IMG/VR virus record: IMGVR_UViG_3300044680_000046
Location: 1 to 35,537 of that record
Direction: 5' to 3' (one strand)
Source: a virus
DNA: 35,537 nt
Positions 1-29,935 of this stretch are shown here, piece by piece. Made by a program: the position numbers and the translations under genes. Below the pieces are notes generated by a model. That model was given only the letters and a program-made list of their open reading frames with translations. It was not told where the DNA came from and did not search any database. Positions within the stretch are counted from its first letter, which is position 1. Each line of letters begins with the position of its first letter.

Positions 1-824
1 CCAAGAATCCCGCCGATGCCATTATTGAGAATGAGCACTTGCGGGATTCCGATGTAGCCCGATCCCGGCGTGTCTACGACAATCCCCGCGACCTGCTGGC
101 CGTTCGTTCCGCCTAACGTTGCATGACCGGTTGCGGCGACCCCTTGCGGACCAAGACCACCCTCAAAAGTGACTGTTACGTTGCCAGAGGAATAGAAATA
201 ACCTTCCTGCTGCATCGTGACGCCAGAGACGCCGCCTCCGCTAATAGCAGCGAGTCCGAATGCCCCTTCACCCCCGTGGAACATTACCCACTGGCCAGTT
301 GACCATCCGTGTGCCGCTGAGGTGGTAATGTAGGCACCCTGGATGGTAATCGTGATTGTCCCCGAGTATCCGGTGCCCCCATTGGTTACCGAGATTGAGG
401 CAACCCCTCCGCTGGTCACCGTAACCGCCAAAACCGCCCCGCTGCCTCCCGTACTCCCTGTCACGTAGGCGAACGTTGCACCCTGGACGTATCCCGTTCC
501 CGGTGCCGTGACGGTTGGGGTTTGAATAACGCCGCCCGACTGTGTGGCTGTGGCTGTTGCCCCGCTGCCGAAGGTTACGTTGGATATCGCGCTTGTCGTC
601 CCGTTCTGATCCAGGTACAACGTAACGAGGCCAGGGCCGCTCGAAGTCTGCCAACTATAGGCCGCGCTCTGCCACGCATTGAACGCAGTAGCATCGCCTG
701 CGGTTTGGCCGGTGCAGGTTGACGAGTTCCCGTAGGCCGTGATGTGCGTTGTTGGCTGAGTCTGAGCGCGGCACAAGCCAGCAACAACAAACATGGTGGC
801 GATTAGTCGAAATAGAATCATCAT
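1..824 (-). CDS. Secreted-type beta-rich virion/tail protein, cut by window edge
   Basis: The frame is open from the ATG at 824 to the window edge without a stop, so about 274 residues are present and the C-terminus is missing. The first ~20 residues look like a Sec signal peptide: a short start, a hydrophobic run (LIATMFVVAGL), then C-R-A before QTQ, a likely signal peptidase I site. The rest is rich in Gly, Thr, Ser and Val, with repeated G-x-G-Y turns (PGTGYVQG, GGTGYSGT, PGSGYIGIP) spaced by beta-type sequence, as seen in fibrous tail or adhesin domains. It is the third long beta-rich gene in a row at the end of the minus-strand arm, 36 bases after its neighbour. A second ATG at 821 is equally possible, and no clear ribosome-binding site is seen. 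Role as a tail or surface-binding protein is inferred from context. Confidence 0.75.
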   Translation of the reverse strand, partial: MMILFRLIATMFVVAGLCRAQTQPTTHITAYGNSSTCTGQTAGDATAFNAWQSAAYSWQTSSGPGLVTLYLDQNGTTSAISNVTFGSGATATATQSGGVIQTPTVTAPGTGYVQGATFAYVTGSTGGSGAVLAVTVTSGGVASISVTNGGTGYSGTITITIQGAYITTSAAHGWSTGQWVMFHGGEGAFGLAAISGGGVSGVTMQQEGYFYSSGNVTVTFEGGLGPQGVAATGHATLGGTNGQQVAGIVVDTPGSGYIGIPQVLILNNGIGGIL

Positions 825-860
825 TATGTTCTGGCTTGGTTGCTTGGAGGATGAAACCTC

Positions 861-3800
861 TTAAGTTCCGGTGCAACTGTAATCGAACAGGTATGCCGCC
901 GCCGACACATTTGCTACCGCCGCCGTGATAGTGAATGAACCGAGGGAGTCGGTATGGCCGACGCCGATACCAACCAGCCCGCCGTTCTGCGTTACCATGC
1001 AGCTTGTCGAAACCGTGTGGGCCGTTCCAAAGGTCACGGTGGCGATGGTGCCTGTGGTCACCGCCGTCGACGGAACGCTCACGGTGCCTTGGATGTCAAA
1101 TCCGCTGATCGTTGGTGAGGTGCTGATGGCTCCCCCGGCTGCTACAGTGGGCGCGGTCCCGGCTGGACCAAAGTGACGGAGTTTCAAGTCCCGGTAGTTC
1201 GCCGCCGTGGTGCCTTGGGTGCCTTGGATGATGCTAATTATGCCTGCCGCATCCCGTTCAATAGCTGTGTCGCATCCGGCGACAGCGCCATTATTAGAAA
1301 AACAATATAAGCCTGTGTTTTTCGTACTCCATTGTCCAGTGTTACTGAGCGCGCCAGATTGAACCCCTCCAGCATCAAATAACAAAATGCTTGCGCTCGA
1401 AGTTACATCCAGACCGTTTCCGTTAGACGGGGAACCTACACCTACACCAACTCCGGCCCCGCCGGGGCCGAAATACCCAGAAGTAACATAGGCTGCTCCA
1501 TTAAAAGATCCAGCGAAGATCAATTGACCAGTTGGAGCCGTCGTCCCCTGAACCGGCAGCACGTAAGAAATCCAGTCCTCATTCTCTGAAAGAGACGCCG
1601 TGTTCGTCGCCGGGGACGCCGCCCCAAGGGAACCATCGGCCAGCGTGAGGTTGAACGTGGTCGTCACGTTATCCGCAATACAGGGAGCCGACGCGCACGC
1701 CAGATCCAGCGGCGTCGTTGTGCCCGTTTTTGACATGTAGACATTTCGCCCGGTGACTCCGTTCGGCCCTGTGGGGATTGCCGTCAAGGGAACAAGCGTC
1801 CCTGTCGATGTGACGCAGGTAAAGGTAGCCGTGGCCGCTCCTTTGGTCGTTTCACCCGCTGCCGTGATGAACGTGATGATGGCTTGGTGGGTGCCAGCGG
1901 TACAGCTCCCTCCGGTGGTTGGCGTGCCTGCCGTGGCCGCTCCAGGGACCGCGATAGCGCTCGCAAAGCCCTGCCCCTGCCAATGCATCGACGGGCTGAT
2001 CTGCTGTGCTCCGGTTGCCGCCGCCGTCGTGTTGACCAGTTCAATTGCGTCATTCGGAGTTGTGCCCAGGGCTGTTTGGGTGTGGGTTAATGCTCCGGCT
2101 CCTGTGCGGGTGATTCCCGTCGCGTTCTGTAGTAATGTTCCATCGCTGTAGAGAATCGCATTCGTTGTACTACCAGAGATGCTGGTGCTATTTATGGTGA
2201 GTCCGCCACCCCCACCGCCGCACGAGCCCCAGTTCGGCGTCGTCGAAGCGCCGCCCGAGATCGCACACTGCCCGGCAGTGCCTGCGGACCCGGCAAACTG
2301 CAAGGGCGAAGTCGATCCCGATAAATTAATCCCGGCACTATAGGTCTGAAGCGCAGAGAAAGTCTGGGCCAAGTTCAGTTCCGCGATTGTGCCCGTATTC
2401 GCTGGGAGGCTGGCGGTGACCGACCCTAACGCTCCGGTTACGGTCTGGAGGGTGACGGTGCCACTGGTGGCATTACCGAAAGCCAAGGAGCCCAAGGTGC
2501 CCGATGCGCCGAGAGTAGGCGTTGCAGTCCATGAAGGATTCGCCCCGGAGTTGCCCTGGAACATCGTGCCGTTGGCCGGGACTGCGATCCCCGCGATTGT
2601 TGTGCTGGTGACCCAGACGCCAACTTGATATTGTGCTGGAGTGCCGCTGTTTGAGACGTTGCCGCCGCCCGAAGGCGTTATACACGCTCCGTCGCCACGT
2701 AGATAGGTGGAACTGGAGCAAGTGCCTGATGCCGGGACAAGGGCCGAGAAAAGGTTCGCGCCAGAGAACGTACCGAGGAGGGTGGAGACGCCGCTTCCAA
2801 GCGTTAGCCCAGTATCCACCGCATCCGCGCCGCCAGCTACACGAAGTTGGCCGGAAGTCAGTTCGAGCGACATCCCGAAGAATTGACTGGAGGCGTTCTC
2901 GCAGCGATAGGTAAGGATCGTGCTGTCGCCTTGGCACCAGATCTTTCCTGATGCTGGCGTTCCGGTCTGGAATGTCGACGTGCCATAAATGGATGGGCCG
3001 CCATCGGCCTGCGCCGGGAAAGGTTGGAAATTGGTACCATCCCATATTCCCGAGATTACGGTCGTCACGCTACCTACTGGGCTAGGTTGTCCCGCCTTCG
3101 TCCATCCACTGGGCCATGTCACCTGATAGAACGTCGTTGGACCAGAAGAATTTTGTATGAGACTAAATACAACCGTCTCTCCAGCCGTGCATCCCGAAAT
3201 GGTCGGCGAGATATTGGCTGACAGGGCGGTCGAAAGCTCGAATACATCTACGGTCCCGGCACTGGAGGATGAGCACGTAAATGCTGGAGTCGAACTGAAG
3301 GTGACGGTATGGAGGATCGCTGAAGAACCAGAGCCGCCGCCTCCCGAGTACTGTGGAATATTCAGGGTGTTCGTCGATTGGGTCCAGGTCGCCGCACCAC
3401 TACTGCCCGTCGTAGTCAGCGTGATCGGCAGATTAGTTAGGTTTGAGGCATTGCCGCTAGAGGGAGTCCCGAGCGCACCGCCGAAAGTCACGAAGGCACC
3501 TGCGGAGCCGACGTTAATTGCCAGCGCTGTCCCTACTCCAGTCCCCAGTCCGGCGATGCCGCCTATTGGAACAGTGTTGGCCGCGATCGAGCCGGTGCCG
3601 ATAGCCGCAACCGCGCCGGACGTACTCATCTGGATTCCGTTAGAAGTGCCCTGGGCCGTGAATGTGAAGGGGTGCGCCGTCGAAGTGCCGACCGTGTTGA
3701 CTTCAAACAGCGATCCAGTTCCGGTGTTCCCGGTCGCATCTATGATCGAGAACATATTGGATGTGCTGGTGTTGCCTTGGACCGTAATGAGGCTAGTGAA

Positions 3801-4256
3801 TGTCCCTACGTTGATGCCCATATTCCCCGTGGGGTTAGTCAACGCGGACCACGATGTGGATGCGCTGCCGGAGCAGGAACTGAAGACTGGCGTACCGCCG
3901 CTGACCGATACGAGGCAGAGCGTCCCGGCACCACCCGTGGCCGTCGCTTGAAAACCGCCGGAGGAGTTCTGGTAGACGATGCCGTTGGTTCCGCCTGCCG
4001 TGATCCCCGTACCGCCGTAGAGTTCCCAGGCGTAGGTGTTTGTTCCCGTGTTGTCGCAGGTGTAAAAGGAATGGAATACGGAAGCGGCTGATTTATTGAT
4101 GTAGACCTTGCCAACGGATGCCGCCACATTGCACGAGGACGACGCTGGTGCGCCGCTGCCGGTGATAACCCGCTGCGCGACGCCGCCCCCGCCGATGATC
4201 TGTCCTAGCAAAAGTCCAGGGCTGGACAAAAATACTAGGGCGGCGAAGAGTTTCAC
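861..4256 (-). CDS. Large Gly/Ser/Thr-rich tail-fibre-type protein with signal peptide
   Basis: This encodes 1131 residues of low-complexity beta-rich sequence (G, S, T, A, N), typical of phage tail fibres or adhesins. I chose the GTG at 4256: it overlaps the upstream stop as GTGA and has a GGGGGAT ribosome-binding site 5-7 bases before it, while the in-frame TTG further upstream has none. From this start the N-terminus is V-K-L-F followed by a hydrophobic stretch ending in LLLG before QII, a Sec-type signal peptide. The middle has glycine linkers such as SGGGGSG and a stretch (AAGETTKG onward) like the visitor domains of tail fibres that bind host surfaces. The last ~100 residues look like a separate compact beta domain ending in DYSCTGT. 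Host-surface binding is inferred from composition and position. Confidence 0.8.
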   Translation of the reverse strand: MKLFAALVFLSSPGLLLGQIIGGGGVAQRVITGSGAPASSSCNVAASVGKVYINKSAASVFHSFYTCDNTGTNTYAWELYGGTGITAGGTNGIVYQNSSGGFQATATGGAGTLCLVSVSGGTPVFSSCSGSASTSWSALTNPTGNMGINVGTFTSLITVQGNTSTSNMFSIIDATGNTGTGSLFEVNTVGTSTAHPFTFTAQGTSNGIQMSTSGAVAAIGTGSIAANTVPIGGIAGLGTGVGTALAINVGSAGAFVTFGGALGTPSSGNASNLTNLPITLTTTGSSGAATWTQSTNTLNIPQYSGGGGSGSSAILHTVTFSSTPAFTCSSSSAGTVDVFELSTALSANISPTISGCTAGETVVFSLIQNSSGPTTFYQVTWPSGWTKAGQPSPVGSVTTVISGIWDGTNFQPFPAQADGGPSIYGTSTFQTGTPASGKIWCQGDSTILTYRCENASSQFFGMSLELTSGQLRVAGGADAVDTGLTLGSGVSTLLGTFSGANLFSALVPASGTCSSSTYLRGDGACITPSGGGNVSNSGTPAQYQVGVWVTSTTIAGIAVPANGTMFQGNSGANPSWTATPTLGASGTLGSLAFGNATSGTVTLQTVTGALGSVTASLPANTGTIAELNLAQTFSALQTYSAGINLSGSTSPLQFAGSAGTAGQCAISGGASTTPNWGSCGGGGGGLTINSTSISGSTTNAILYSDGTLLQNATGITRTGAGALTHTQTALGTTPNDAIELVNTTAAATGAQQISPSMHWQGQGFASAIAVPGAATAGTPTTGGSCTAGTHQAIITFITAAGETTKGAATATFTCVTSTGTLVPLTAIPTGPNGVTGRNVYMSKTGTTTPLDLACASAPCIADNVTTTFNLTLADGSLGAASPATNTASLSENEDWISYVLPVQGTTAPTGQLIFAGSFNGAAYVTSGYFGPGGAGVGVGVGSPSNGNGLDVTSSASILLFDAGGVQSGALSNTGQWSTKNTGLYCFSNNGAVAGCDTAIERDAAGIISIIQGTQGTTAANYRDLKLRHFGPAGTAPTVAAGGAISTSPTISGFDIQGTVSVPSTAVTTGTIATVTFGTAHTVSTSCMVTQNGGLVGIGVGHTDSLGSFTITAAVANVSAAAYLFDYSCTGT

Positions 4257-4693
4257 AATACATCCCCCAGGGCGTGGCAATAATCACCAGCGTCCTCGAT
4301 CACGATTTGGAACATGCCTGCCCAATACACATCCGCCTTCTGACTGTCGCCAATCGACCACGACTCCCCGGCGTCGATAGCCCGGATTACGCCACCGAGC
4401 ACCGGCGTGGCACCTCCTCCATTAATAAACGTGGTGGCTTCATTGAAGGGCGAAACACCCCAGCATACAAAAATCCGGCCGCCGTTCCCCGCGTTGGCCT
4501 TGATTTCAAGTTTGTTCACCCAGAGGTCGTCCTGCGAGTTTGGATTCCCATACGGATAAGGGATGGTCCCGCCTTCGGTCTCAAGGTTGGATGTGATGCG
4601 CAGCGCGTTCGCATCGCCAGTCCCCACCGGGGCGATGACCCCAAAAAGAACCGGCTTACCGAGTGGTTGATACTTTCCTGGAATCACTGCCAT
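4253..4693 (-). CDS. Small putative virion protein, 146 aa
   Basis: A compact mixed beta protein of 146 residues with no domain I recognise with certainty. It starts at an ATG with a strong GAGGTG site five bases upstream, follows the small basic gene by four bases, and ends in a GTGA overlap with the large fibre gene, so it is translated with it. The sequence (WVNKLEIKANAGNGG, FVCWGVSPFN, GESWSIGD) resembles small beta-sandwich head or tail decoration proteins that report a surface value over a fixed reference. No signal peptide is present, unlike the two fibre genes on either side. Function is unknown; a tail-associated structural role is inferred from the neighbourhood. Confidence 0.75.
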   Translation of the reverse strand: MAVIPGKYQPLGKPVLFGVIAPVGTGDANALRITSNLETEGGTIPYPYGNPNSQDDLWVNKLEIKANAGNGGRIFVCWGVSPFNEATTFINGGGATPVLGGVIRAIDAGESWSIGDSQKADVYWAGMFQIVIEDAGDYCHALGDVL

Positions 4694-4697
4694 AAAT

Positions 4698-4871
4698 TCA
4701 CCTCGTCTTTTTTCTCGACTTCTTCACCGCCGCATTTGCGATCCGGACGGCGGACCCTTCGGAGCCGCCGCGCTTCAGGACGGCGTTCGCGGTCTTACTG
4801 AACATGCGCTTACGCTTAGGCGTATTAGCCTTGCGGGTAAACGATCTCGCATCCGATGGCGACCAAGGCAT
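4698..4871 (-). CDS. Short basic protein, MPWSPSDA type, 57 aa
   Basis: A short gene of 57 codons in the gap between two long virion genes. The ATG at 4871 has AAAGGA seven bases upstream, and the stop lies four bases before the next ATG. The protein begins MPWSPSDARSFTRKA and continues with a Lys/Arg-rich helix (TPKRKRMFSKTANAVL) and a terminal basic tail (KKSRKKTR). This pattern (MPW, S/D, F-T-x-K-A, P-K-x-x-R-x-x-x-x-x-A-N-x-V-L, then a small-residue A-I/V-R-x-A-N) is one I know from many small hypothetical phage proteins, which makes the gene call firm although their function is not known. A nucleic-acid or capsid-associated role is possible from the charge. Confidence 0.8.
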   Translation of the reverse strand: MPWSPSDARSFTRKANTPKRKRMFSKTANAVLKRGGSEGSAVRIANAAVKKSRKKTR

Positions 4872-4934
4872 AGGGCTGTCCTTTAGAAATATCCTAACCC
4901 TTTGGCGGGTTGCTTACTGTGTGAACAAAATCCC

Positions 4935-7457
4935 CTACTGAATCTTTAAACTCAGGATACTAAGGGCCACCGTGGAGGCCGACAGAGTGGTGTATTTGTC
5001 AAAACCAACGCCACCGGCCGCTGGAGTGGTCAGGCCCAAAGAACTTGATGTCGCGGTGAATATGGCGGCGGTGCAAGCCGACAGTTCGGCGCAGGCGAAG
5101 AATGTGTAGTTGGCCGATCCGTCGTAGTGAATCTCCAGCCAATTAACCGACGACACGGCATTCGCCTGTTTATTGCTGATGCTCGTGAAGCCGCTGGTCG
5201 TAGAAGTGAAGGTCTCCAATTGAAGCTGAGAGTTGGATTGTCCGCTTGTGTAATCCTGGACCCCCCACGCGATCCCGGCTGTGGTCCCGGAGTTTCGCAG
5301 GTAGACGAAAAATTGGCCATACTGTCCCGAATAACCCGAGTTTGAAATCTTGGCTGTCAGCGTCCATGCTCCCGATCCAGGCACTGTGGTATCCACGCCG
5401 ACCAGAGAATGGGAGGCCGATGTCGCCGCAGAGAGCGTAACGATTCCATTGGTGGTGACGGTGGGCGAGCCCATGTTCGTCAACGACAAAGCGGCGGGGA
5501 GGGAAATCAGGTCATCTCGATTGAAATAGTTGTAGGTGGAGCTTCCATTACAGACAGAGAGAATCGGCACATCCGTCGCTTGGTAGGGAAATACGCTGGT
5601 CGAACAAGACGGTTTAGAGGCGAATGCTCCCGGAGCCGGAAGGCTAGACCCGCCCCCTCCAATCCCACATTCTTGACAGATAAACGCCGAGGGGGCACTA
5701 TTGAGTGCCAAAGTGAGGTGGGCTCCCGCCGTCAAGGTCGGGTTGCTTCCACCACTCGCCGTCAGAATCGGCAATGGACTGGCAATCGTATTCAATTGCA
5801 ACATTGGCGATGAGGAGCACGTAAAATCAGGCACGAAGAAGAACACCGCGTTGGCCGAATAGCTCGCGAATGTTGGGTTGGTCGTGAATGTATAGGCGCA
5901 AGCTCCAGAGGTAGGCGTGATTACTTGAGGGTTGCTGTTCCCGGTGAGGAGGGCATTCCTTGTGACCACGTAAGCCGTATCCACGTAGCACTGATCGTTC
6001 GCACAGATTATTCCCGCACCGCCAGCGAGTAACGTTCCATTCAGGTGGTAGTTGGTTTGGTCACTCCATACCGATCCGCCCTGTCCGGGAGTCGCTACGG
6101 TCAGGGTAGCCGAGGTCGTTCCATTTGGCAGGATGAAGACGCTCGGGCTGGTGGCGGTGATCGTCAGGACCCCGTTGCAGTCGTTCTGGAAAAACCCAAC
6201 CCAGTTAGCCGGTAGAGTTGCGGCCGATGGCGCGGAGATGGCGCATGCGCCCGTCGTGTATGTCCTATCAACGAGGACAGAGGCGTCTCCGGAGACCCAC
6301 GTATAACTCGCACCGCTCTGCGTGTTAACGCCGTTCAACCCGGACCCACCACCGCTGCAAGTCCCCGTGACGATCTGTCGGCTGCTATTGGTCCCCACGC
6401 AAGGCTGACTGGCCGGTACGGTGGCCCCATTTACATCCACCGCATTCACGTTGGTCAGAAGCGAGCCATTCACTACGGGGATCAAGGCGCTGCTGTTTAA
6501 CTGAAGTAGATTATTTGCGGCGGTACCCACGGTATAGCTCGTACCCCACGCGGACCCGGTGGAGTTGCCCACCCCCGCTCCGGGATAGACTTGTGACGGC
6601 GGAACCGCAAACGTACAATCCGCGCGCAGAAAATTCGTGGTGCCTCCACCGGTTGCTGGCACGAGCCCCTGAAGCGAAGAGGAGCACGCGCCGAGCGCGG
6701 CCGTCAGGGTCGTTAGGGAATAGGAAGTGCCCCATGCGCTGCCGGTTGAGTTCGGAATCCCGGCGCCGGGGTAAACCACGTTGGTCCCGCAGGTCCCGTT
6801 GACCAGTAACGCATTGGTTCCCGTACCGCATCCCGAGCCGGTCCAGAGTGCTGCAATATTCGCCTGTGTGATCCCGAGATTTGTGCGTGCCGTTGCGGCA
6901 TTGGCTACGTCGCTCAAATTGTTTGCCGCCTGGAGGAAGAAGGCGATCGCCTGCGTTGCGGCCGTCCCCAATCCTAGATTGGTCCGCGCTGTCGCTGCGT
7001 TGGCCACGTCCGAAAGGTTGTTGCCGGAGAGCAGGTAACTTCCGCCTGACGTGATGCTCCCGATACCCCCGAGCCAGAGATATTTGGTTCCACCGTAGGT
7101 GATTGTGGGGCTGCCGGTGATCGAGAATCGGATGTAGGCGTGGTAGCCGGTTCCGATTCCAGCGCAGGAAGCGGAGGTGTTCGATACGCTCGAACTGGAG
7201 TCCTGGAAGTTGGTCCACGGTCCCGCAGAGGACACGTCGGAATATTGAATCTGAACTGTCCACGTTCCGCTGCCGGTAGGACAAAAACTATGGCTTGTGT
7301 TCTGGTAGAGGATCGAGACGTTCGATATTACGAAAGATGAAGAGGTGATCCCCGAGATAACATAGCTCCTAACGACCTCGGGCTGGAATCCTTGCGTTTG
7401 CGCGCTTGTCCAACCATGGACAAACATCAGGACGGTGAGCAGGGTGAGCTTCCTCAT
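4935..7457 (-). CDS. Tail-fibre-type protein with signal peptide and fibre repeats
   Basis: This 840-residue protein has an N-terminal Sec signal (MRKL, hydrophobic run TLLTVLMFVHG, then T-S-A before QTQ). Residues 146-162 and 179-195 carry two near-identical copies of NNLSDVANAATARTNLG, the short repeat typical of phage tail fibres. A second repeat, VYPGAG then NSTGSAWGTSY, occurs at about residues 228-246 and 290-308. The final ~200 residues look like a lectin-type beta sandwich (WTLTAKI, GQYGQFFVYLRNSG, WLEIHYDGSANYTFFACA), a plausible carbohydrate-binding head. The start overlaps the previous stop as ATGA. A receptor-binding fibre is well supported; why such a protein should carry an export signal is not explained by normal phage assembly. 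Confidence 0.87.
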   Translation of the reverse strand: MRKLTLLTVLMFVHGWTSAQTQGFQPEVVRSYVISGITSSSFVISNVSILYQNTSHSFCPTGSGTWTVQIQYSDVSSAGPWTNFQDSSSSVSNTSASCAGIGTGYHAYIRFSITGSPTITYGGTKYLWLGGIGSITSGGSYLLSGNNLSDVANAATARTNLGLGTAATQAIAFFLQAANNLSDVANAATARTNLGITQANIAALWTGSGCGTGTNALLVNGTCGTNVVYPGAGIPNSTGSAWGTSYSLTTLTAALGACSSSLQGLVPATGGGTTNFLRADCTFAVPPSQVYPGAGVGNSTGSAWGTSYTVGTAANNLLQLNSSALIPVVNGSLLTNVNAVDVNGATVPASQPCVGTNSSRQIVTGTCSGGGSGLNGVNTQSGASYTWVSGDASVLVDRTYTTGACAISAPSAATLPANWVGFFQNDCNGVLTITATSPSVFILPNGTTSATLTVATPGQGGSVWSDQTNYHLNGTLLAGGAGIICANDQCYVDTAYVVTRNALLTGNSNPQVITPTSGACAYTFTTNPTFASYSANAVFFFVPDFTCSSSPMLQLNTIASPLPILTASGGSNPTLTAGAHLTLALNSAPSAFICQECGIGGGGSSLPAPGAFASKPSCSTSVFPYQATDVPILSVCNGSSTYNYFNRDDLISLPAALSLTNMGSPTVTTNGIVTLSAATSASHSLVGVDTTVPGSGAWTLTAKISNSGYSGQYGQFFVYLRNSGTTAGIAWGVQDYTSGQSNSQLQLETFTSTTSGFTSISNKQANAVSSVNWLEIHYDGSANYTFFACAELSACTAAIFTATSSSLGLTTPAAGGVGFDKYTTLSASTVALSILSLKIQ
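6534..6776 (-). repeat. Second duplicated unit in tail fibre gene
   Basis: The peptide VYPGAG-x-x-NSTGSAWGTSY is encoded twice, at about 6720-6776 and 6534-6590, inside the tail-fibre gene. The two copies flank a short linker ending in LRADCTFAVPP. It is a second, different repeat from the NNLSDV unit and probably another shaft segment. Confidence 0.8.
6873..7022 (-). repeat. Duplicated fibre repeat, two 51-base units
   Basis: Two copies of a 17-codon unit encoding NNLSDVANAATARTNLG lie at 6972-7022 and 6873-6923. The encoded peptides are identical but the codons differ in several places, so the copies are kept alike by protein selection or are old. The unit is the well-known repeat of tail-fibre shafts. 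Confidence 0.85.
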
Positions 7458-7666
7458 TTTCTATATCCCTCGCTCGACCCGTTCAATACGAGGTGTTTGG
7501 CGGCTTCCAGGAGCCCAAGGGCTAGCGTCCGCGTCTCCTCGCTCTTGATGATAAGCGCGCCGTCGCGGTTCGTGAAAATGACCATGAGACTGACCGGCTC
7601 CGACTCGGAGAAGAGGCTCATCGCATCCATTAGAACTTGGCTCGGGGTTTTGGTTTCTTGTTCCAT
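7454..7666 (-). CDS. Small acidic hypothetical protein, 70 aa
   Basis: A 70-residue protein with one small alpha/beta fold by appearance: a helix (SQVLMDAMSLF), two strands (VSLMVIFTNRDGALIIKSE) and a C-terminal helix (RTLALGLLEAAKHLVL). Small phage proteins with the pattern hydrophobic-Y/F-T-N-x-D-G followed by K-S and a G-L-x-E-A-A helix are common near tail genes, but I know of no assigned function. The start overlaps the previous stop (TAATG), and the stop overlaps the tail-fibre start (ATGA), so its translation is coupled on both sides. Confidence 0.7.
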   Translation of the reverse strand: MEQETKTPSQVLMDAMSLFSESEPVSLMVIFTNRDGALIIKSEETRTLALGLLEAAKHLVLNGSSEGYRK

Positions 7667-8472
7667 TACACCGCCTCGATCGCTTCCCCCATCACTGCCT
7701 TCGCCAGCATGATCCCTTCCTCATAACGCGCATGCGCATAACGTGCCCGCTGGATGTCCTTCAGTTCCGAGTCCGACATCCAGATCTTCTCCAGTATTCC
7801 ATATTGGATGAAGCAGACCCAATCATCGGTCAGCGACTCCATCGGGTCACCCAGGGTGACGTCCTCGGTCATGAGACCAACCGGCCCGATCGTGCAAGCA
7901 TTCCCCCGACTGAATTGGTTGAGCGGCTGGGAACCAAAGAAGGCTCCCGGTGATGTGAAGGCGGCAACCCCGCTGGTCTGGATCATGGTACCGATGTACG
8001 CCGGTACGCCGGTTTCCGGCTGCCCCGGAGCCCACGCCAGCACCGCACCATATGTGCCGGGCGGAGGGTAGTTGGGACTCAGCGTGCTTTCCACGTTTGG
8101 GGCCGGGTAGAAGCTGAGTTGAAAGGGATACTGTTTGTCCTGCCGCCACGATCGCGGTGCTCCCACCTTGGTTTGCCAGTCCCGGTCGATTGTTGAAATG
8201 CTACCTTCGAAATCACGGCGTAGAGCACAGCCGTCGCTGAAAGCCAAGTCCGGCTGTGAGGTCCAGTCCGGTAAAGTTATTTGAGCTTGTCCGTATTCTA
8301 ACGGGCAGGCAGCAATGCATTTGATCAGTCCGGTGCGACCGAGGAAATCGTCCATCACTTCTCGGTAATATTCGAGCCACTGGGTTTCTGTGATGAGGCC
8401 GAGCGTAAAGCCAGCTGGCTCCAGCAAAATGTCGCAGCAGTTAAAATAGACCTGGCTGACCGTTGTGCTCAT
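7666..8472 (-). CDS. Putative head-tail adaptor or neck protein, 268 aa
   Basis: The 268-residue protein opens with helices (DILLEPAGFTLGLITETQWLEYY, quoted here in part), followed by a beta-rich middle with many Pro and Gly (about residues 60-190) and a final helical bundle (SDSELKDIQRARYAHARYEE). This helix-sheet-helix plan is shared with the proteins at 8469 and 10188 and with the helical-bundle adaptor proteins that connect portal and tail in short-tailed phages. The start overlaps the end of the upstream gene by four bases (ATGA), and the stop shares a base with the next start. Specific function is inferred from position and shape only; a tail-tube or stopper protein is an alternative. 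Confidence 0.65.
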   Translation of the reverse strand: MSTTVSQVYFNCCDILLEPAGFTLGLITETQWLEYYREVMDDFLGRTGLIKCIAACPLEYGQAQITLPDWTSQPDLAFSDGCALRRDFEGSISTIDRDWQTKVGAPRSWRQDKQYPFQLSFYPAPNVESTLSPNYPPPGTYGAVLAWAPGQPETGVPAYIGTMIQTSGVAAFTSPGAFFGSQPLNQFSRGNACTIGPVGLMTEDVTLGDPMESLTDDWVCFIQYGILEKIWMSDSELKDIQRARYAHARYEEGIMLAKAVMGEAIEAV

Positions 8473-9125
8473 GCTGGCGTCGGAACCTCCGTCTTCGTTT
8501 GAACTTCAACCCAGTACTTGGGATTGATAACGGCAGATTCCCAGCGCTGAAGGGCGCGCGCCCGCTTCAACCACTGTTGATAACCAGCGGATGCGTCCGC
8601 AAAGGGCTTGCCTCCTTCTTTCAGCACGAGGTTAACGAACGCGTACAGGCTGACCAGGTCCGCGTATTCGTCGTCCAAGTTGAGCGTGTCGGTTGGGTTG
8701 ACCAGCAAGGCCGGGGTGGTGACACCCCAGCATTCCAGGTACTTTCCACCGCTTGGGTCCACCGGATGGATTCCAAATAGTTGCGTGCCTACGGGAATCC
8801 AGCTCCGGGTATACGAACCAGAGCCAGCTCGTAGCCAGCGCTGATCGGTGTTGCTGGTACCGGTTGCCGTGCTTTTGTAGAGCAGTTTCCCTTCGAGGTA
8901 CATCCGCATCGGGTAGACGATCGGGGCCGGGATGCGATACCACTGCCAGTTGGCGATCGTCAGCCCTACCGGCACCTGTGCTTGGCTGAAGCCCGTGAAA
9001 AGGTTCAGGACCCGTGCGCCCTCATTGATCAGCCGATCGACACTGGACTGCTGATAGAGTTCCTGGTTATTGTCCAGGCGGGTCCATGTTCGATTTTCGA
9101 AGTCACTGAGGGTGGTCTGCGGCAC
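8469..9125 (-). CDS. Putative adaptor-like virion protein, 218 aa
   Basis: The protein has 218 residues. Its N-terminus is helical (ELYQQSSVDRLINEGARVLN), the middle is a beta domain with Trp, Tyr and Pro (ANWQWYRIPAPIVYPMRM; SWIPVGTQLFGIHPVD), and the C-terminus is again helical (ADLVSLYAFVNLVLKEGG, then KPFADASAGYQQWLKRARAL). The C-terminal pattern PFxDxxxxxYxxWLxRA resembles PFFDPKLAAWYERLA in the protein at 10188, which suggests a shared origin. It overlaps the next gene by four bases. A neck or adaptor role is an inference from this resemblance and from its position between capsid and fibre genes. Confidence 0.65.
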   Translation of the reverse strand: MPQTTLSDFENRTWTRLDNNQELYQQSSVDRLINEGARVLNLFTGFSQAQVPVGLTIANWQWYRIPAPIVYPMRMYLEGKLLYKSTATGTSNTDQRWLRAGSGSYTRSWIPVGTQLFGIHPVDPSGGKYLECWGVTTPALLVNPTDTLNLDDEYADLVSLYAFVNLVLKEGGKPFADASAGYQQWLKRARALQRWESAVINPKYWVEVQTKTEVPTPA

Positions 9126-9422: not shown

Positions 9423-10079
9423 TTAAGACTCCCTTACGTGTGATTTATTTGCTGGGCTGACGGGAGCAAAGACGGCTCTCTCCGCATCCCAGCCTCTCCG
9501 CAAACGCTGACGAATACGTTCAGCGTCTACCCCAGAGATAGCAGACCACTCGGACGCTGCTCGGGTATGCTCATTTACGGTGATCCTTAAGTTGTCGCGG
9601 CGATTATTCTGCTGCTCTATTTCCGTGGCCCACCGGACATTTCCTTTTTCGTAATGGCCTTTGTTGTCAGGAAAGCGGTCGAGGGAGTGGTCTGCGGACG
9701 GACATGGGCCGACGTCTACAAGAAAGTTTTTGAAACCATCCGGCCCGAGCCAGCGCTCACAGACCTTAATCCCGCGATTACCGTAGTACACCCAAGAAAT
9801 ATGCTTAGGATTGTAGCATCGCTGGATCATCCCGGCCCAACGCCTATACTCTATCGATTTCGCTAAACCGTGAGTCTTATTTATTCCCTTGCGCGCGCAG
9901 TGTACGCATGATTTAGCGCGCCCCACCACCATTGCGTAGTCCCATACAACACATGTATTTCCACAATCACATAGGCACAGCCATTTGGCACGGTACCCTG
10001 AGTCCGATGGCGCCCTGCCGATCACTTTGAGTAGAGCGAATTTTTGTCCAACCCGATCTGGTACCCTTTTCTTAGTCAT
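9423..10079 (-). CDS. HNH homing-type endonuclease
   Basis: The 218-residue protein has three parts. Residues ~30-65 form a zinc-ribbon-like element (CLCDCG then CVHC). The middle carries the HNH pattern of phage free-standing endonucleases: H-G-L near the start, then EYRRWAGMIQRCYNP, YYGNRGIKVCERW, the catalytic H-S-L-D-R, and N-V-R-W-A-T-x-x-x-Q-x-N-N-R. The C-terminus (RAASEWSAISGVDAERIRQR) resembles the small helix-turn-helix modules that help such enzymes bind DNA. I chose the ATG at 10079, which has a GGGAGG site upstream; the longer frame reads through two hairpins. It interrupts an otherwise compact virion operon, as expected of a mobile gene that cuts an allele lacking it. Activity is not proven; the key residues look intact. 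Confidence 0.88.
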   Translation of the reverse strand: MTKKRVPDRVGQKFALLKVIGRAPSDSGYRAKWLCLCDCGNTCVVWDYAMVVGRAKSCVHCARKGINKTHGLAKSIEYRRWAGMIQRCYNPKHISWVYYGNRGIKVCERWLGPDGFKNFLVDVGPCPSADHSLDRFPDNKGHYEKGNVRWATEIEQQNNRRDNLRITVNEHTRAASEWSAISGVDAERIRQRLRRGWDAERAVFAPVSPANKSHVRES

Positions 10080-10084
10080 TGTTT

Positions 10085-10146
10085 GACCCCTCCCACGGGT
10101 CGAAAAGACGAGGTCCTTGAGAGGCGTTTCAGCGCCTCTCAAGACC
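10085..10146 (-). promoter_or_regulatory. Two consecutive hairpins before the HNH gene
   Basis: The 5' leader of the endonuclease gene holds two hairpins. The first, 10112-10146, has a perfect 11-base-pair stem (CTTGAGAGGCG with its complement) around the six-base loop 10127-10132, and extends by three more pairs across a bulge. The second, 10085-10101, pairs GACCC with GGGTC and puts the ribosome-binding sequence GGGAG in its seven-base loop. The first could end or slow transcription, although it has only a weak T run; the second could limit translation. Some T4 homing-endonuclease transcripts are known to hide their ribosome site in a hairpin, so a similar damping role is plausible here. 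Confidence 0.6.
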
Positions 10147-10187
10147 GATAAGTTTCTGGCGTTAAAGCCTGCTCTTAAAAGCATAGC

Positions 10188-11363
10188 CTAGAACCACCCC
10201 GAAAGCTGCTCCCAGCCTCCGTGCCGCATCCAGAAGGTGCTGTTTTGTCCGGGACCGAACAGATTAGAACTCTGTTGGTTGTAATCTTGAATCGCTAAGT
10301 TTTCGTCGGAAGCCATTGCTTGATTCAGATCCTCAAGCGCCAGCCGCTCGTACCACGCCGCCAGCTTCGGATCAAAGAACGGATCATCCTTTGAGAGCTT
10401 CGTAGCCAGTGCCAGCGAGATCGCCTTGTTGGTAAAGATCGTCGGCTCCAAGAACGGCGGCGGGATCGATTCGTCGTCGGTCATCTTGGGCCACTGTAGG
10501 CTGCATAGGAACGCAATCTGCCGCCCGCACGTAGGCGCGGGATAGATCTCCCACTGCATGAACCCCGCCGCACTGGGACCGCGCGAGACAAATGCGATCG
10601 GGTCCGAATTGTCCGACCGCTGCGGGTCTGTCATGTTCAACTCTTCCTGCGTCATCCCAGTGTCCAGTGGAATACCTTGCTGCTGGTCGATACAGGTCAC
10701 GATCTTTCGGATGTTCTGGTTCTGCGAACTTGCCAGCACCGAGTAATACATCCCCAGGATGTAGTAAAACCAGTTGGTCAGCGGCGGTCCACCCCACGGT
10801 GAGTCGATCAGTAGCGTAGTCGGCGTCGGAACGGCCATAACGGTGAAGACCGGGAACTCGTAACCAGTTCTAAGTTGCTGCCCCACCAGCGAGGACTGCG
10901 TAACCGTCGCCCCGATGTTATGTGCGAACTGGAACTTGGTCGTGATCGACAGCCCCTCGACCAGATAGACCGGGCAGTATTCCTGATTTGGATTCCCCTG
11001 GTCGATCAGTAGCACCCCGTCCGGCTGCAACCCGGAGACACTGGCGAGCGCGATCTTATCAAACCCTCCGGGAGAGACCACCGGTTCGGCGAGGGTTGTG
11101 TTGACGATATCGTTCGTCGGCCAGGTCATGCCCGCGCCGGTCACGAGATTCGAACCGGTGTTGAGATTGATCGTCCCGGTGTTCGTCTGGTTCGGGACAG
11201 ACACGACGCCGGTCTTTCGAAGATCTACCCAGTAGGGGCGCTTGTTGATTGCCCAACGCACGGCGTCATTTATTGCCTGCCGACAACGAGAATCTCCAAA
11301 TTCCGCGCGCGCATCATTGACGCGGCCAACCATGGAAAACAAAGTCTCGGAGGTCAGTGCCAT
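10188..11363 (-). CDS. Large adaptor/neck-type virion protein, 391 aa
   Basis: The 391-residue protein begins with a helical segment (LFSMVGRVNDARAEF; CRQAINDAVRWAINKRPYW), followed by a long beta region (GVVSVPNQTNTGTINL and beyond), and ends with helices (FTNKAISLALATKLSKDD, then PFFDPKLAAWYERLALED) and a Gln/Asn-rich tail. The layout, with 'N-terminal helix, W/Y, then an acidic strand', resembles short-tailed phage adaptors and tail tubular proteins that bind below the portal. It is the first gene after the terminator at 11380-11412, so it opens a separate tail transcription segment. The start ATG has AGGA about eight bases upstream. Exact role is inferred. Confidence 0.65.
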   Translation of the reverse strand: MALTSETLFSMVGRVNDARAEFGDSRCRQAINDAVRWAINKRPYWVDLRKTGVVSVPNQTNTGTINLNTGSNLVTGAGMTWPTNDIVNTTLAEPVVSPGGFDKIALASVSGLQPDGVLLIDQGNPNQEYCPVYLVEGLSITTKFQFAHNIGATVTQSSLVGQQLRTGYEFPVFTVMAVPTPTTLLIDSPWGGPPLTNWFYYILGMYYSVLASSQNQNIRKIVTCIDQQQGIPLDTGMTQEELNMTDPQRSDNSDPIAFVSRGPSAAGFMQWEIYPAPTCGRQIAFLCSLQWPKMTDDESIPPPFLEPTIFTNKAISLALATKLSKDDPFFDPKLAAWYERLALEDLNQAMASDENLAIQDYNQQSSNLFGPGQNSTFWMRHGGWEQLSGWF

Positions 11364-11437: not shown

Positions 11438-12118
11438 CTAAAGCGTTCGTACCCGGTAAGTCAGTTCGAGTTTGACAGTGCCGGTGCCCGTGATGAACGG
11501 CGCGGTCAGGTTCCCGAAGTAGAGCCCCGTATTCGCCGTAGTCGAGCCGACCAGCGCCGCGCCGATTCCGGTCACGATGCCATAGGTGGTCACCGTGGGC
11601 GAGGTCAGGAACGTCGCGGCCAGGGTGGTGCTGCCTTCCGTAGCCGCCACCAGCGTCGAACTTCCATATCCGAATGTGAGCACGCCGCCGTTCGCGTAAG
11701 CGGTTCCGGTGTTCAGGTTCTCGACCACCGCTTCCACGACTTCAATGAGTGTACCCGCCCCCTGCGCGGCAACCACGGCAACCGGCGCGGCTTCCATGCC
11801 GAGCGTCTGGGTGTTGGTCAGCGTGAGCGTGACGTATTGCAGGGTGTCCGGCGCCATCTGCGCGTAGTCGACCAAGCCGACCGAGTTCGCGGGCATGGTG
11901 TATGGCGTGCCACCGTTGACCGAGAACTGGAGCGCGTTGCTGTTGCCGCAAATCCGAACCGTTCCGGATGCCCCAGCAGTACACGTTCCGGCTGCCTGAA
12001 GGTCGATATGCGTCCATAGGCCGCCTCCCGTGTTGTCGGTGGCGATCTGAAATGCCGCCAGCACGCCCACCGTGAGTAGGACGCCGAGCACTGCGAAAAT
12101 CTTGGTAGTATTCTTCAT
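11438..12118 (-). CDS. Putative virion surface protein with N-terminal signal/anchor, 226 aa
   Basis: The 226-residue protein starts with MKNTTKIF and a hydrophobic stretch (AVLGVLLTVGVLAAF) that reads as a Sec signal or membrane anchor. The remainder is beta-rich. Its C-terminal half is clearly related to that of the upstream neighbour at 12129: both have GAGTLIEV followed by a similar helix or strand, then A/S-T-F-L-T-x-P-T-V, and end in a K-x-x-Y-R-V strand. Only this copy has the hydrophobic N-terminus. The ATG has AGGGAG six bases upstream. The pair lie after the major capsid protein and before the terminator, so decoration or head-surface proteins are likely; how an export signal fits is unclear. 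Confidence 0.7.
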   Translation of the reverse strand: MKNTTKIFAVLGVLLTVGVLAAFQIATDNTGGGLWTHIDLQAAGTCTAGASGTVRICGNSNALQFSVNGGTPYTMPANSVGLVDYAQMAPDTLQYVTLTLTNTQTLGMEAAPVAVVAAQGAGTLIEVVEAVVENLNTGTAYANGGVLTFGYGSSTLVAATEGSTTLAATFLTSPTVTTYGIVTGIGAALVGSTTANTGLYFGNLTAPFITGTGTVKLELTYRVRTL

Positions 12119-13279: not shown

Positions 13280-14260
13280 CTAGAAAAGTGTCCCCGCCGT
13301 GCACAGCAGCTTGGCGCAACTGCGCGGGTTGGGTAGCAGGAATTGCGTACCGACCAGATACTGGCCGGCGTAATCGATCGAGTTCGCTGCTTCCTTGAAG
13401 CCGGTGAAGCCCCACTGGAACAGCGGCACGGTTGAGAAATACCACTCCACATACTCGGTGTTCAGCAGCCACATGGCCCCGGCGGTTCCGGTCGGAGCGT
13501 AGCGGTCCATAACCACATCGGCGGCGTTGAACCGAAATGCCTGGAAGCCCATCTTCCCAACATCCGTATTGGTCATGTCGGGGTAGCGCTGCAACGGCTG
13601 CAATGAATTCCAAAACAGATTCCAACCCGGAGGCGTTGCGGTAATCAGGTCGACGTGATCCGCACCCCAAGCCGCGTTGGTGTACGCGCCCTGAACTGCC
13701 GCCAGATTGAAACTCGTCAGGTTGGCGGTGTAGGCGTTCAATCCACCAGGGGTTCCGACCGCCATAATGTCGGCGCGGGTGATTCCGCCAATCGTCGGGA
13801 AGTTGGTGCCGTCATCCACCCAGGCGCTCAAGCCTTCCAGGTTCAATGCGCGGCCCGAGGTCTGGCTTGACAGGAACAGCGCGGTGCCCAGAAGTTCCGC
13901 CATGCGGAGACCAGCGTTTTTGAACTTAAGTTCGATCTGGCTGAAGGCCGCCGGATCGCCGCTGTTCAGCATCGCATCGAAGCCGTAGAGCGTCATGTTG
14001 ACCGCGTATAGCTTCATCGGGAGTTGCAACGCCGTTTCTGTAACGACGTAGTCGATGTCGAACGCCGTCCCGCGTCCAACCGCATCACCCCAGAGCTTAC
14101 CGACCGTCAGTACACGTTGGATCTGAGTGCCGCCCTCGAATCGCTCCATGCGCCGGGTATGCAGGCGGGTGAAGGTGGGGGAGTTCTTGTAAACAACTTC
14201 CGTCGCCCGTGGAGCGATATAGGTTGTCGTGAAAGCGTTAACATCAACGATGGGTAGCAT
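13280..14260 (-). CDS. Major capsid protein (probable)
   Basis: This 326-residue protein lies directly after the scaffold-type gene and has the size and composition of HK97-fold capsid proteins. Features that fit: an N-terminal arm (YIAPRATEVVYKNSPTFTRL), a segment read as the E-loop and spine helix region, and a central domain (DIDYVVTETALQLPMKLYAV and on). The late part (MDRYAPTGTAGAMWLLNTEYVEWYF) is the kind of beta strand seen near the capsid P-domain end. It has a strong AGGAG site before the ATG. No protease gene is seen in the head cluster, in keeping with an uncleaved capsid protein helped by a scaffold. Identification rests on context and general pattern, not on a specific motif. Confidence 0.8.
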   Translation of the reverse strand: MLPIVDVNAFTTTYIAPRATEVVYKNSPTFTRLHTRRMERFEGGTQIQRVLTVGKLWGDAVGRGTAFDIDYVVTETALQLPMKLYAVNMTLYGFDAMLNSGDPAAFSQIELKFKNAGLRMAELLGTALFLSSQTSGRALNLEGLSAWVDDGTNFPTIGGITRADIMAVGTPGGLNAYTANLTSFNLAAVQGAYTNAAWGADHVDLITATPPGWNLFWNSLQPLQRYPDMTNTDVGKMGFQAFRFNAADVVMDRYAPTGTAGAMWLLNTEYVEWYFSTVPLFQWGFTGFKEAANSIDYAGQYLVGTQFLLPNPRSCAKLLCTAGTLF

Positions 14261-16471: not shown

Positions 16472-16639
16472 CTCTTTTGCGCGCTCCAGAATCTCGCGTC
16501 CATCAAACGAATTGTGCACCCAGATGCCGCCTTGGTTGCGTGGACCGCAGGAACACCCCTCTCCGTAAGTGTGCCCGTGCAGATCGTTCATAGGTATCAC
16601 GTCGCATTGTCCAAGGCTGGACTTTGAGGCTTTCCACAT
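16454..16639 (-). CDS. Small Cys/His-containing hypothetical protein, 61 aa
   Basis: A 61-residue protein whose start codon shares its A with the portal stop (TAATG); a longer open frame upstream only shadows the portal gene. It contains the pattern VIPMNDLHGHTYGEGCSCGP, then WVHNSFDGREILE. A similar pattern (N-D-L, then C-x-C, then V-H-N/H-S-F/M-D-G-R-E) is familiar to me from small phage proteins found near head genes, with no known function. The Cys and His residues could bind a metal. It is translated in step with the portal, so a structural accessory is possible. Confidence 0.7.
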   Translation of the reverse strand: MWKASKSSLGQCDVIPMNDLHGHTYGEGCSCGPRNQGGIWVHNSFDGREILERAKESVSGN

Positions 16640-18501
16640 TACGCGATTTGTCCGTTCCGCGCGCCGCGACTGGCTCGTGGAGTTCGGCCGGTCATCTGGC
16701 CGCCGGTGATCCCCTTCTTGCGCTCGTCCATGATCCGCGCAATCTCTTGCTGCACGTCTCCGATGTCGCACTTCTTCAGCAGAGTCTCCAGGCTCAGCGC
16801 TCCGGCCCGGAACAGAATCAGCGCCTTGGTCTGGTCCCGATCCTTGTTCGCGCCGTGCAATGATCCCTGCGAGATTGCCACGGAGAAGTTCTTCCAAAAA
16901 GCATCTCGCGCGTGGTCCGCTGGAACCATGTTTGTCGGATCCCAGACGTAATCATCCCAGGTGACGCCGTCGTTCCCCATGATCCAGTAGCGCTGCTGCC
17001 GGGGGAAGTACTGGATGATGTGGCTGATCCCTATTTCCCCAGCGTTGCGGAGCGCCACTTCGATGTAGCGTCCTTCAAGCCGGATCGGCCCACCCTGAGC
17101 ATCCCTAATCTGCTCCATGGTGTCCCCGCCAGGAACTTGTTTCTTTTTCGAAAGCGATGCCGTGTCCATCGAGCCAGCATGCCGGTCGAAGATCGAGAGC
17201 AGGTATTTCGCGTATTCAAATACATACGCGGGCAGGCTCGGAGGGTCGAGCGCACGAACATCCCGAATATCCGCCGTGGCGTTCATGAGCATCTTCTGAT
17301 TCGGGATCTCGGGGTAGAACCGGTTCCAGTCGGCCTCACTTACCGATCCGCGCTTCGCCACATACGCCTGATTGATCGCCTTCTTGATCGTGTCGAAAAC
17401 ACCGGCCGAGATCTCATTGACGCCCAGATTGAGCGGCAGCAGCGTCCGGTACTTCGACAAGCCGCCCGGTGCCCACACCACGGGGTCAAGCACAAACTTC
17501 ACGAATGGGTAGAGCGTGGTCCAGTAGGGCGAGGTGGTGTCGTAAAGATTCTGCTCGCCGCCGAATACCAGCAGTCGCTTCCGTGGATAGAGGCGTCGTC
17601 CTGGCTTCACCACGTACCAATAGTTGTGCTGGTCGGTGCTGTAGCGAGGGTCCTTAACGAGCACGTCGTTGAGGGACTCGTTTAGTTGGCCGTCCTCGAT
17701 CCATAACTCCTCTAACTCGCCAACGGGAAACGGGTCATCCGACCGCCACGTGCCATATTGCCCAGGAGCCCGGTCCTTGAGCATGTGCCGCATGGAGGGC
17801 GACAACTTGGACCAGGAGTACTCGGACATCATCTGATTTGAAGGAGTGTTCGAGTCGTTGGATTTGTAGGCGTCGGAACCGCTCTTTAGGACTTTCTCCG
17901 CCACGTCCTTCCCGAACTTCTCCACGAAGTATTGAATTGGCTTGAATGCCGAGTAGCGAATCGCGCTTGAATCCTGAATGTCCGATGGGCAGTTCACGGT
18001 CATCAAGGAATCCATGCCCATGCTGATTACGCTCAATCGGCCCAACGATCCGTTGACCTTCCAGAATCCCTCCGAGAGCATCGCGTGGTCAAGAACCTCT
18101 GCCAACTTGAGATCCATGTCCCCACGCACCCACTCGTGCATGAGCATCTTCTGGAGGATTTCCGCATGTTCTGAAAATGGCTGGGAGTGTACGGCGATCG
18201 TGGGCCGGATGTCGGTGTACTGCGCCAGGGTTTCCCGGCGCGCGCGGTTCAAATGGTTGTCAACAAACTTCGAGCGGAACCGCGGGCGGTTGGCGGGCCA
18301 CATTTCCCCCATTAGGGCCTTTATGTAATCGTTCAACCGATTAAATTCTTTGTTTGCTTTTCGTTCCTGGAGGGCTTGTTGACGGGTGCCTTCGCGGAAT
18401 GTTCTCAACTTGGCCGCGTATCTATCGGTTACATCGACAGTGCCGGACTTCATCTTGTAGATGGGTCCGCGCGGCGCACGATCGAAATTTGAATCAGCCA
18501 T
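16639..18501 (-). CDS. Portal protein (probable)
   Basis: This 620-residue protein is in the right place (between terminase and scaffold/capsid genes) and has the size of short-tailed phage portals. The N-terminal part is helical and charged (YAAKLRTFREGTRQQALQER), followed by DHAMLSEGFWKVNGS, typical of the portal wing region where a substrate state is described by position-specific strands. The middle and late parts have Tyr/Trp/Pro-rich strands (YWYVVKPGRRLYPRKRLLVF) and a long helix (FEYAKYLLSIFDRHAG) that would line the channel, and the C-terminus is basic. It overlaps the upstream zinc-ribbon gene by eight bases. I chose the ATG at 18501 (MADSNFD); an upstream in-frame start would overlap further. 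The assignment comes from size, order and general pattern. Confidence 0.8.
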   Translation of the reverse strand: MADSNFDRAPRGPIYKMKSGTVDVTDRYAAKLRTFREGTRQQALQERKANKEFNRLNDYIKALMGEMWPANRPRFRSKFVDNHLNRARRETLAQYTDIRPTIAVHSQPFSEHAEILQKMLMHEWVRGDMDLKLAEVLDHAMLSEGFWKVNGSLGRLSVISMGMDSLMTVNCPSDIQDSSAIRYSAFKPIQYFVEKFGKDVAEKVLKSGSDAYKSNDSNTPSNQMMSEYSWSKLSPSMRHMLKDRAPGQYGTWRSDDPFPVGELEELWIEDGQLNESLNDVLVKDPRYSTDQHNYWYVVKPGRRLYPRKRLLVFGGEQNLYDTTSPYWTTLYPFVKFVLDPVVWAPGGLSKYRTLLPLNLGVNEISAGVFDTIKKAINQAYVAKRGSVSEADWNRFYPEIPNQKMLMNATADIRDVRALDPPSLPAYVFEYAKYLLSIFDRHAGSMDTASLSKKKQVPGGDTMEQIRDAQGGPIRLEGRYIEVALRNAGEIGISHIIQYFPRQQRYWIMGNDGVTWDDYVWDPTNMVPADHARDAFWKNFSVAISQGSLHGANKDRDQTKALILFRAGALSLETLLKKCDIGDVQQEIARIMDERKKGITGGQMTGRTPRASRGARNGQIA

Positions 18502-18958
18502 CGGCTTGCTCAGCCGAAATCTTAGCACTTTCGTGGTTCTGGTGGGAAATGAACTCCGCCGCTTCTTTCTTTGTTGCCGCTGTTAGGGACTTCCCGTCGG
18601 GCGAGATCATGGCGGGGCCGGTGTCCGTTGGGTTTGCCAGCCCTTCCTCCCGACAGTAGCTGGCTTGTTCCTGAAACGTCTCTATGTAAACTGGCTCCGG
18701 CTTGCCGCTGATGGTTTTTTTCTTCCACGCCCAGTGTCCGCCGTCCTGTGCATTACCACCTTCCAAATTTCTCTCCAGATAACGGGCCGTGATGGCTCCG
18801 CAGAATGGAGAGTTGAACCGGCTCACTCGGCGTTCGGTCGGTTGAGCACAGTGAGGACAGGGCGGCTCCGGGGACTCGAAGCGTACGGCGTACCACTCGA
18901 AGATCTTCCCGTGCTCAGGGCAGGCTGGCGTTCGGCACGAGCTTTCGTACAGTGGCAG
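18494..18958 (-). CDS. FmdB-like zinc-ribbon protein with CTG start, 154 aa
   Basis: Read from the CTG at 18958, the protein begins M-P-L-Y-E-S-S-C, the hallmark start of FmdB-type zinc ribbons, and has two Cys pairs at residues 8/13 and 34/37 (CRTPAC; CPHC). After ~45 residues comes a segment common to phage proteins of this type: GHWAWKKKTISGKPEPVYIE followed by TFQEQASYCREEGL. No ATG, GTG or TTG lies between the upstream in-frame stop and this CTG, and AGGGAG stands eight bases before it, so CTG is the best start. Beginning at a later GTG would remove the whole zinc ribbon. The gene overlaps the portal start, and its role may be in head assembly. Confidence 0.75.
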   Translation of the reverse strand: MPLYESSCRTPACPEHGKIFEWYAVRFESPEPPCPHCAQPTERRVSRFNSPFCGAITARYLERNLEGGNAQDGGHWAWKKKTISGKPEPVYIETFQEQASYCREEGLANPTDTGPAMISPDGKSLTAATKKEAAEFISHQNHESAKISAEQADG

Positions 18959-24398: not shown

Positions 24399-24706
24399 TT
24401 TGAATTCGTCCCCAGCGCCGCGTCCATCTGCTTTCCTATCGGGACGCGCTTTTGTTTCCGCGCTTCACGTGCTAGGTCATCCAGGTACTTGCGGTCAGTT
24501 CTCTTTCCCGAAAACTTTCCCATAATCTGCTCCCTGAAATAAGCTTCTTGATCCTCCGTGGGAGTGGCCACTAGGGCATCAAATACACTGCGGGGGACAT
24601 CTTCGAATTCCCAGAACTCGCCCATTCGAATATCCACCGTCATCCTTCGTGTTTTTGGAGTGTAGGAACAACCCACATCGGGCGCTTCCTGGCCGTACAG
24701 TTTCAT
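24395..24706 (-). CDS. KTSC-domain protein, 103 aa
   Basis: A 103-residue protein whose first ~60 residues fit the KTSC domain: a Y-x-P strand (SYTPKTRRMTVDIRMGEFWE), then DVPRSVFDALVATP and a conserved F/Y-R-E-x-I ending. KTSC domains occur in small bacterial and phage proteins, and some are fused to lysyl-tRNA synthetase, but their function is not settled. The rest is a basic helix. It is linked by ATGA overlaps to the transglycosylase before it and to the L,D-transpeptidase-like gene after it, so it belongs to the lysis group by position. Confidence 0.75.
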   Translation of the reverse strand: MKLYGQEAPDVGCSYTPKTRRMTVDIRMGEFWEFEDVPRSVFDALVATPTEDQEAYFREQIMGKFSGKRTDRKYLDDLAREARKQKRVPIGKQMDAALGTNSK

Positions 24707-29738: not shown

Positions 29739-29935
29739 CGCTCAATCCCCGCATACTCCCTGAACTTCGCTATCTTGCCGCGTACCGTCGACAGATATCC
29801 AGAACCGCAGCAGAACTCGCAGTGGGCATCAGGGTCGCGCCAGATCGCACAGGGGCAGGCTTCAATCTCCACACCGCAGTGCTTGCAGACCTGACGGCCA
29901 CGCCGGATTACCAGACGGTGCCAGCACAGAATCAC
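29735..29935 (-). CDS. Cys-rich zinc-finger protein, 66 aa
   Basis: A 66-residue protein with three Cys groups: C17-K-H-C20, then C27-P-C29, then C39-E-F-C42-C43, enough for one or two zinc sites. The ends are basic. It overlaps the following zinc-ribbon gene (ATGA) and the upstream secreted gene by four bases (29932-29935), so all are translated together. I do not recognise a family. Confidence 0.65.
   Translation of the reverse strand: MILCWHRLVIRRGRQVCKHCGVEIEACPCAIWRDPDAHCEFCCGSGYLSTVRGKIAKFREYAGIER

Follow-up and report, generated by a model that had tools for sequence, protein, structure and literature searches.

Sec-type signal peptides and paired cysteines suggest export of tail-fibre-type proteins in a podovirus-type phage and its relatives

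Three genes of a 35.5-kb IMG/VR virus record (IMGVR_UViG_3300044680_000046; all 35,537 nucleotides were analysed and are referred to below as the window) encode proteins that each start with a Sec-type signal and, right behind it, a Gln, and long signal-bearing proteins of the window and its relatives mostly contain even numbers of closely paired cysteines. As far as sequence can tell, Sec export and oxidative folding of the signal-bearing proteins are very probable. As a whole we favour, with a probability of about 0.5, the reading that these would be exported, disulfide-modular, receptor-binding fibres that join the virions at lysis.

The late region of the window is of podovirus type and lies on the minus strand, as do all window genes described here. 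It encodes the terminase large subunit (19829–22573), a probable portal protein (16639–18528; without a PHROG match and recognised by its size, its position in the interval between terminase and capsid genes, and its relatives), the major capsid protein (13280–14260; PHROG 9953, E 2.5e-22; 28% to the Mx8 major virion protein), a tail gene (10188–11363; 71% identity to the related contig L004 over this gene), an SU10-type adaptor protein (8469–9125; Pfam PF24175, E 1e-7, over the cut-off) and, upstream of the fibre genes, a tail gene without a signal (7666–8472; 70% identical in L004). The likeness to SU10-type and Mx8-like podoviruses consists of the adaptor and the capsid protein. The latter and the probable portal protein served as baits for finding relatives. 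The terminase contains an in-frame intein-like insertion (CFVAGSKV...VHN/S, residues about 635–805) with Pfam Hint_2 and Intein_splicing matches below the cut-off, and the L004 terminase is without it. An HNH endonuclease gene (9423–10184) lies within the tail adaptor cluster, at a site occupied in L004 by another gene of about the same size.

The first of the three signal-bearing genes, 4935–7457, encodes a tail-fibre-like protein of 840 aa (PHROG 2282, tail fiber protein, E 1.2e-14), with a 19-residue signal peptide, MRKLTLLTVLMFVHGWTSA (7401–7457), predicted to be cut before the Q of QTQ. A conserved N-terminal domain is followed by NNLSD..AATARTNLG repeats and a divergent C-terminal part; residues about 146–224 match Pseudomonas phage tail fibres. 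The second, 861–4256, starts with GTG and encodes a large Gly/Ser/Thr-rich protein of 1131 aa. Its signal, VKLFAALVFLSSPGLLLG (4203–4256), is followed by QIIGGGG and comprises 18 residues if cut before Q; our signal rule itself chose a cut after residue 14, and with L at −3 and G at −1 the site before Q fits the signal peptidase I pattern less well. The third gene, 3–824, is cut by the contig end and encodes at least 274 aa; its N-terminus is MMILFRLIATMFVVAGLCRA followed by QTQ, and its signal is MILFRLIATMFVVAGLCRA followed by Q. These N-termini, as well as the signal-free start (MAVIPGKYQPLG) of the small protein encoded at 4253–4693, had been described in an earlier note on this DNA and are borne out. 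The same note regarded all three of these proteins as being of tail-fibre type. For 4935–7457 this agrees with the fibre repeats and the position behind tail genes, while for 3–824 the PHROG matches, with tail fibres as well as structural proteins, are weak and come from Gly-rich repeats. The protein encoded by 861–4256 has neither a PHROG nor another family match and is called fibre-like from its composition and place. Signals are also present in a protein of 226 aa (11438–12118; MKNTTKIFAVLGVLLTVGVLA), the sole cysteines of which form one close pair, in an SLT-type transglycosylase (24703–25131) that has its own N-terminal signal and is possibly an exported endolysin, and in a small protein of 102 aa (29932–30240; MIRFMLLLSFVLA followed by QTGG), which contains nine cysteines and again has Gln next to the signal. 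Thus, the feature is not confined to the three fibre-type genes.

Signals were called by a home-made rule that asks for a basic n-region, an uncharged hydrophobic h-region and agreement with the −3/−1 rule. It was positive for all three genes, and the features of Sec and signal peptidase I substrates, including small residues at −3 and −1, were found. When the N-termini were shuffled, 3% (7457), 13% (4256) and 1.5% (824) of the shuffles were called as signals, which makes the 4256 signal the weakest taken alone; the value for shuffled N-termini of the family genes was 1.4%. Positive calls were obtained for 26 of 170 family genes, these being mechanical gene calls of which some are spurious, versus 2 of 110 annotated genes from four distant relatives, Mx8, BUCT555, ppBjS10J-1 and ct52p938 (p = 1.4e-4). 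In the annotated regions of these four phages, neither of the two signal-bearing genes carries a fibre annotation. At the L004 fibre the family count is conservative, since its signal, evident by eye, is missed by the rule owing to Arg residues in the c-region. Gln at +1 in three of three window genes would arise by chance with a probability of ~7e-5 at a 4% background. In the family, where cut sites were picked without regard to Gln, it follows 17 of 37 strict signals (p = 1.6e-14 against the same background), as the Q-rule would have it.

Signals are retained in homologues while their letters drift. The counterpart of 4935–7457 at the same place in L004 (L004:14195–16723) has its own signal, MKKILLILALLFVRVRISA followed by QQ. 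The two fibres are 60% identical over the first 197 columns (56–65% within the first 200 alignment columns) and 18–40% identical over most of the remainder. The homologue and three further genes form a row of four signal-bearing genes (L004:14195–21146), and elsewhere the same contig has a second row of four, the first of which resembles 861–4256 at the N-terminus. The N-terminus of 861–4256 resembles L032:730–4800 (QITPGGGSAITRRIVTGSG) and a gene at the end of L009; as this protein alone, used as a query, found no relatives in the viral contigs, its conservation is read from L032 and L009. The small protein of 146 aa (4253–4693), whose gene lies directly upstream of 861–4256 and overlaps it, is 72% identical to L032:4784–5191, which precedes the first gene of that second row, and in a wider alignment shares 41% identity with L009, 20% with L014 and 23% with L019. 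In L032, L009 and L019 a likely relative of it comes ahead of a signal-bearing gene, and in L014 one gene separates the two. Four signal-bearing genes in a row were also found at L209:8380–16013, and several in L022, L033 and L037. Among distant relatives retrieved with the portal protein, long signal-bearing genes of the late region encode 1501 aa in L019, 1825 aa in L033, and 854 and 1282 aa in L037. A natural contrast is provided by G009 and G016, the large fibre-region genes of which are without signals; G016 has one signal-bearing gene, of 263 aa.

A short lipoprotein-like gene (L031:16206–16748; VLCG/CKPT) beside signal-bearing genes is a possible spanin. A small fibre-base-like gene without a signal (L032:17425–18033) is located directly upstream of the signal-bearing L032:16032–17417, and its start is resembled by that of a 1014-aa protein without a signal in G013 (L034:12597–15641). 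It may be that a fibre is divided between compartments.

The cysteines of the signal-bearing proteins follow a pattern of their own. Of the 23 signal-bearing proteins that are complete and reach 200 aa or more, 21 have an even mature count, compared with 58 of the other 131 genes (Fisher p = 2e-5). Close pairing was tested in 16 proteins, 11 of which gave p < 0.05 (combined p about 7e-19). These tests were conceived after the counts had been seen, so that the p values do not come from a planned test, and the related proteins in them are not fully independent. The effect is large and recurs in proteins with little common sequence. In the long signal-bearing proteins the cysteines are grouped as neighbouring pairs: the spacing within a pair is for the most part 3 to 50 residues, and successive pairs lie farther from each other. 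Both complete fibre-type proteins of the window have 20 mature cysteines, arranged in close pairs in 4935–7457 (p = 0.003) and as ten close pairs in 861–4256 (pairing p = 3.5e-4). Close neighbouring pairs are a mark of local disulfides, and the even, locally paired cysteines found here are a feature of disulfide-bonded extracytoplasmic proteins. A fibre-region protein of 2064 aa without a signal (L035:7762–13956) has 20 cysteines and no pairing. As for the low-p genes listed as non-signal, L004:14195 is the signal-bearing fibre overlooked by the rule, L031:17970–19469 is the C-terminal part of the signal-bearing gene L007:14969–18838, L032:13395 has the CxxC look of a zinc finger, and in L016:5943 and L035:51 the pairing is without explanation.

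Sec-exported virion proteins are known from filamentous phages, whose coat proteins take this route and whose pIII has disulfides. Filamentous phages, however, assemble in the membrane, whereas the window and its relatives are tailed phages bearing capsid and terminase genes. Fibres of the Pseudomonas phages XD2, COT4 and UAVern contain similar LSD..ATARTNLG repeats and are likewise encoded among late tail genes, but all three are devoid of a signal and have two cysteines each, in contrast to the Sec signal and 20 paired cysteines of the window fibre. The Q-rule has been described as Bacteroidetes-specific (PMC5837995), and Q-rule secreted proteins of unknown function are reportedly encoded by Porphyromonas phages (PMC10367356; also PMC10653852). 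With these the window proteins share a signal peptidase I site exposing Gln and phage-encoded export, but the proteins of the P. gingivalis phages are not described as tail fibres (PMC10367356). In the open-access literature, to which the search was confined, we came across no description of exported tail fibres. Sequence comparison with solved structures yielded no useful match, and AlphaFold models for the N-terminal domain of the fibre and for the small protein 4253–4693 (pLDDT 48 and 56) were too poor to reveal an anchoring fold.

Under the favoured reading, the tail-fibre-type proteins would be synthesised as precursors and exported via the host Sec pathway, with signal peptidase I cutting directly before Gln. 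The mature protein would then fold in the oxidising periplasm as a string of small modules, each with a local disulfide, and the periplasmic fibres would wait there until, upon cell lysis, they attach to finished virions. The conserved N-terminal domain would anchor the fibre to the virion and the variable C-terminal part would bind the receptor. From the signals, Gln at +1, conservation and paired cysteines we infer export, cleavage and disulfides; attachment at lysis we infer more weakly, and it must be assumed because Sec export would take the protein out of the compartment in which capsids and tails are built. Proteins of the L004 contig without signals, L032:17425–18033 among them, could be the true fibre bases of the virion.

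The main rival, which merits serious weight while being the less probable, accepts export and disulfide bonding but keeps the proteins out of the virion altogether; they would act, for instance, in receptor masking against superinfection, as decoys that bind debris or in sticking cells together. The export and cysteine evidence applies to it identically, and the Porphyromonas phages provide a reported case of Q-rule secretion (PMC10367356). Short or Ig-like signal-bearing members that lack fibre repeats (L031:10546–12696, Big_2) would also suit a secreted role. It is less readily reconciled with the classical tail-fibre repeats of 4935–7457 and the location of this gene directly behind the tail adaptor genes, or with C-termini that, inspected by eye, have no evident surface-sorting signal; moreover, a conserved N-terminal domain joined to a variable remainder suits a receptor binder anchored to the virion. 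Export as proposed in the earlier note finds strong support in the signals kept in relatives, Gln at +1 and the even, paired cysteines; the two purposes suggested there, secreted adhesins and assembly outside the inner membrane, are not decisively separated.

The signal and the cysteine pattern would argue against fibre folding and assembly in the cytoplasm. The hydrophobic N-termini might nevertheless remain uncut and either anchor otherwise ordinary fibres, assembled in the cytoplasm, in a membrane or let them interact with it, and a hydrophobic end by itself could trigger a rule-based call; we consider this improbable, since neither the −3/−1 pattern with Gln at +1 nor even, paired mature cysteines are expected in cytoplasmic proteins. 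It is more improbable still that the signals are due to chance or to misplaced starts, the true proteins starting later and the hydrophobic stretches being untranslated. The start codons are indeed predicted, that at 4256 is GTG and that at 824 has no clear ribosome site. However, at 7457 and 4256 the start codon and the preceding stop codon overlap (ATGA and GTGA), which supports these two starts and couples them to the upstream genes; homologues of different sequence also have the signal, and the control phages yielded only the two calls mentioned above.

The host is likely, though unproven, to be a member of the Acidobacteriota. Shine-Dalgarno-like sites were found for 53 of 116 phage genes versus 17 in the upstream control, and the use of such sites argues against a Bacteroidota host. 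On Acidobacteriota chromosome stretches (L165–L197) Gln occupies +1 at 29 of the 77 cut sites predicted for signal peptidase I versus 2 of 28 in E. coli (p = 0.0017), and the glutaminyl cyclase family PF05096 occurs in 25 of 99 sampled genomes from this presumed host phylum; judging from these predicted sites, Acidobacteriota may be a second phylum with the Q-rule. When 396 genomes from the Acidobacteriota sample were searched with the portal protein, two matches emerged, one on a 4.9-kb contig and the other on a distant prophage-like contig, which would be weak evidence for the host; a portal-capsid contig is present in one genome of the sample. The search with the capsid protein 13280–14260 found no relative among the genome contigs, CRISPR spacers searched at the DNA level within Acidobacteriota matched at chance level only, and for the N-terminal domain of the fibre the sample genomes gave one marginal match and no other.

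Assembly of tailed phages, fibres included, is taught as wholly cytoplasmic. We tentatively suggest, at somewhat less than even odds, that a group of soil podoviruses folds its receptor-binding fibres outside the cytoplasm, the periplasmic machinery of the host introducing many disulfides, and mounts them on virions only at burst. If true, exported, disulfide-stabilised fibres would mean that virion assembly is divided between two compartments and that infectivity is tied to the Sec and disulfide machinery of the host, and they could account for fibre stability in soil. If the proteins are instead secreted and never enter the virion, they would make up a large class of secreted adhesins, encoded by phages and hitherto unrecognised.
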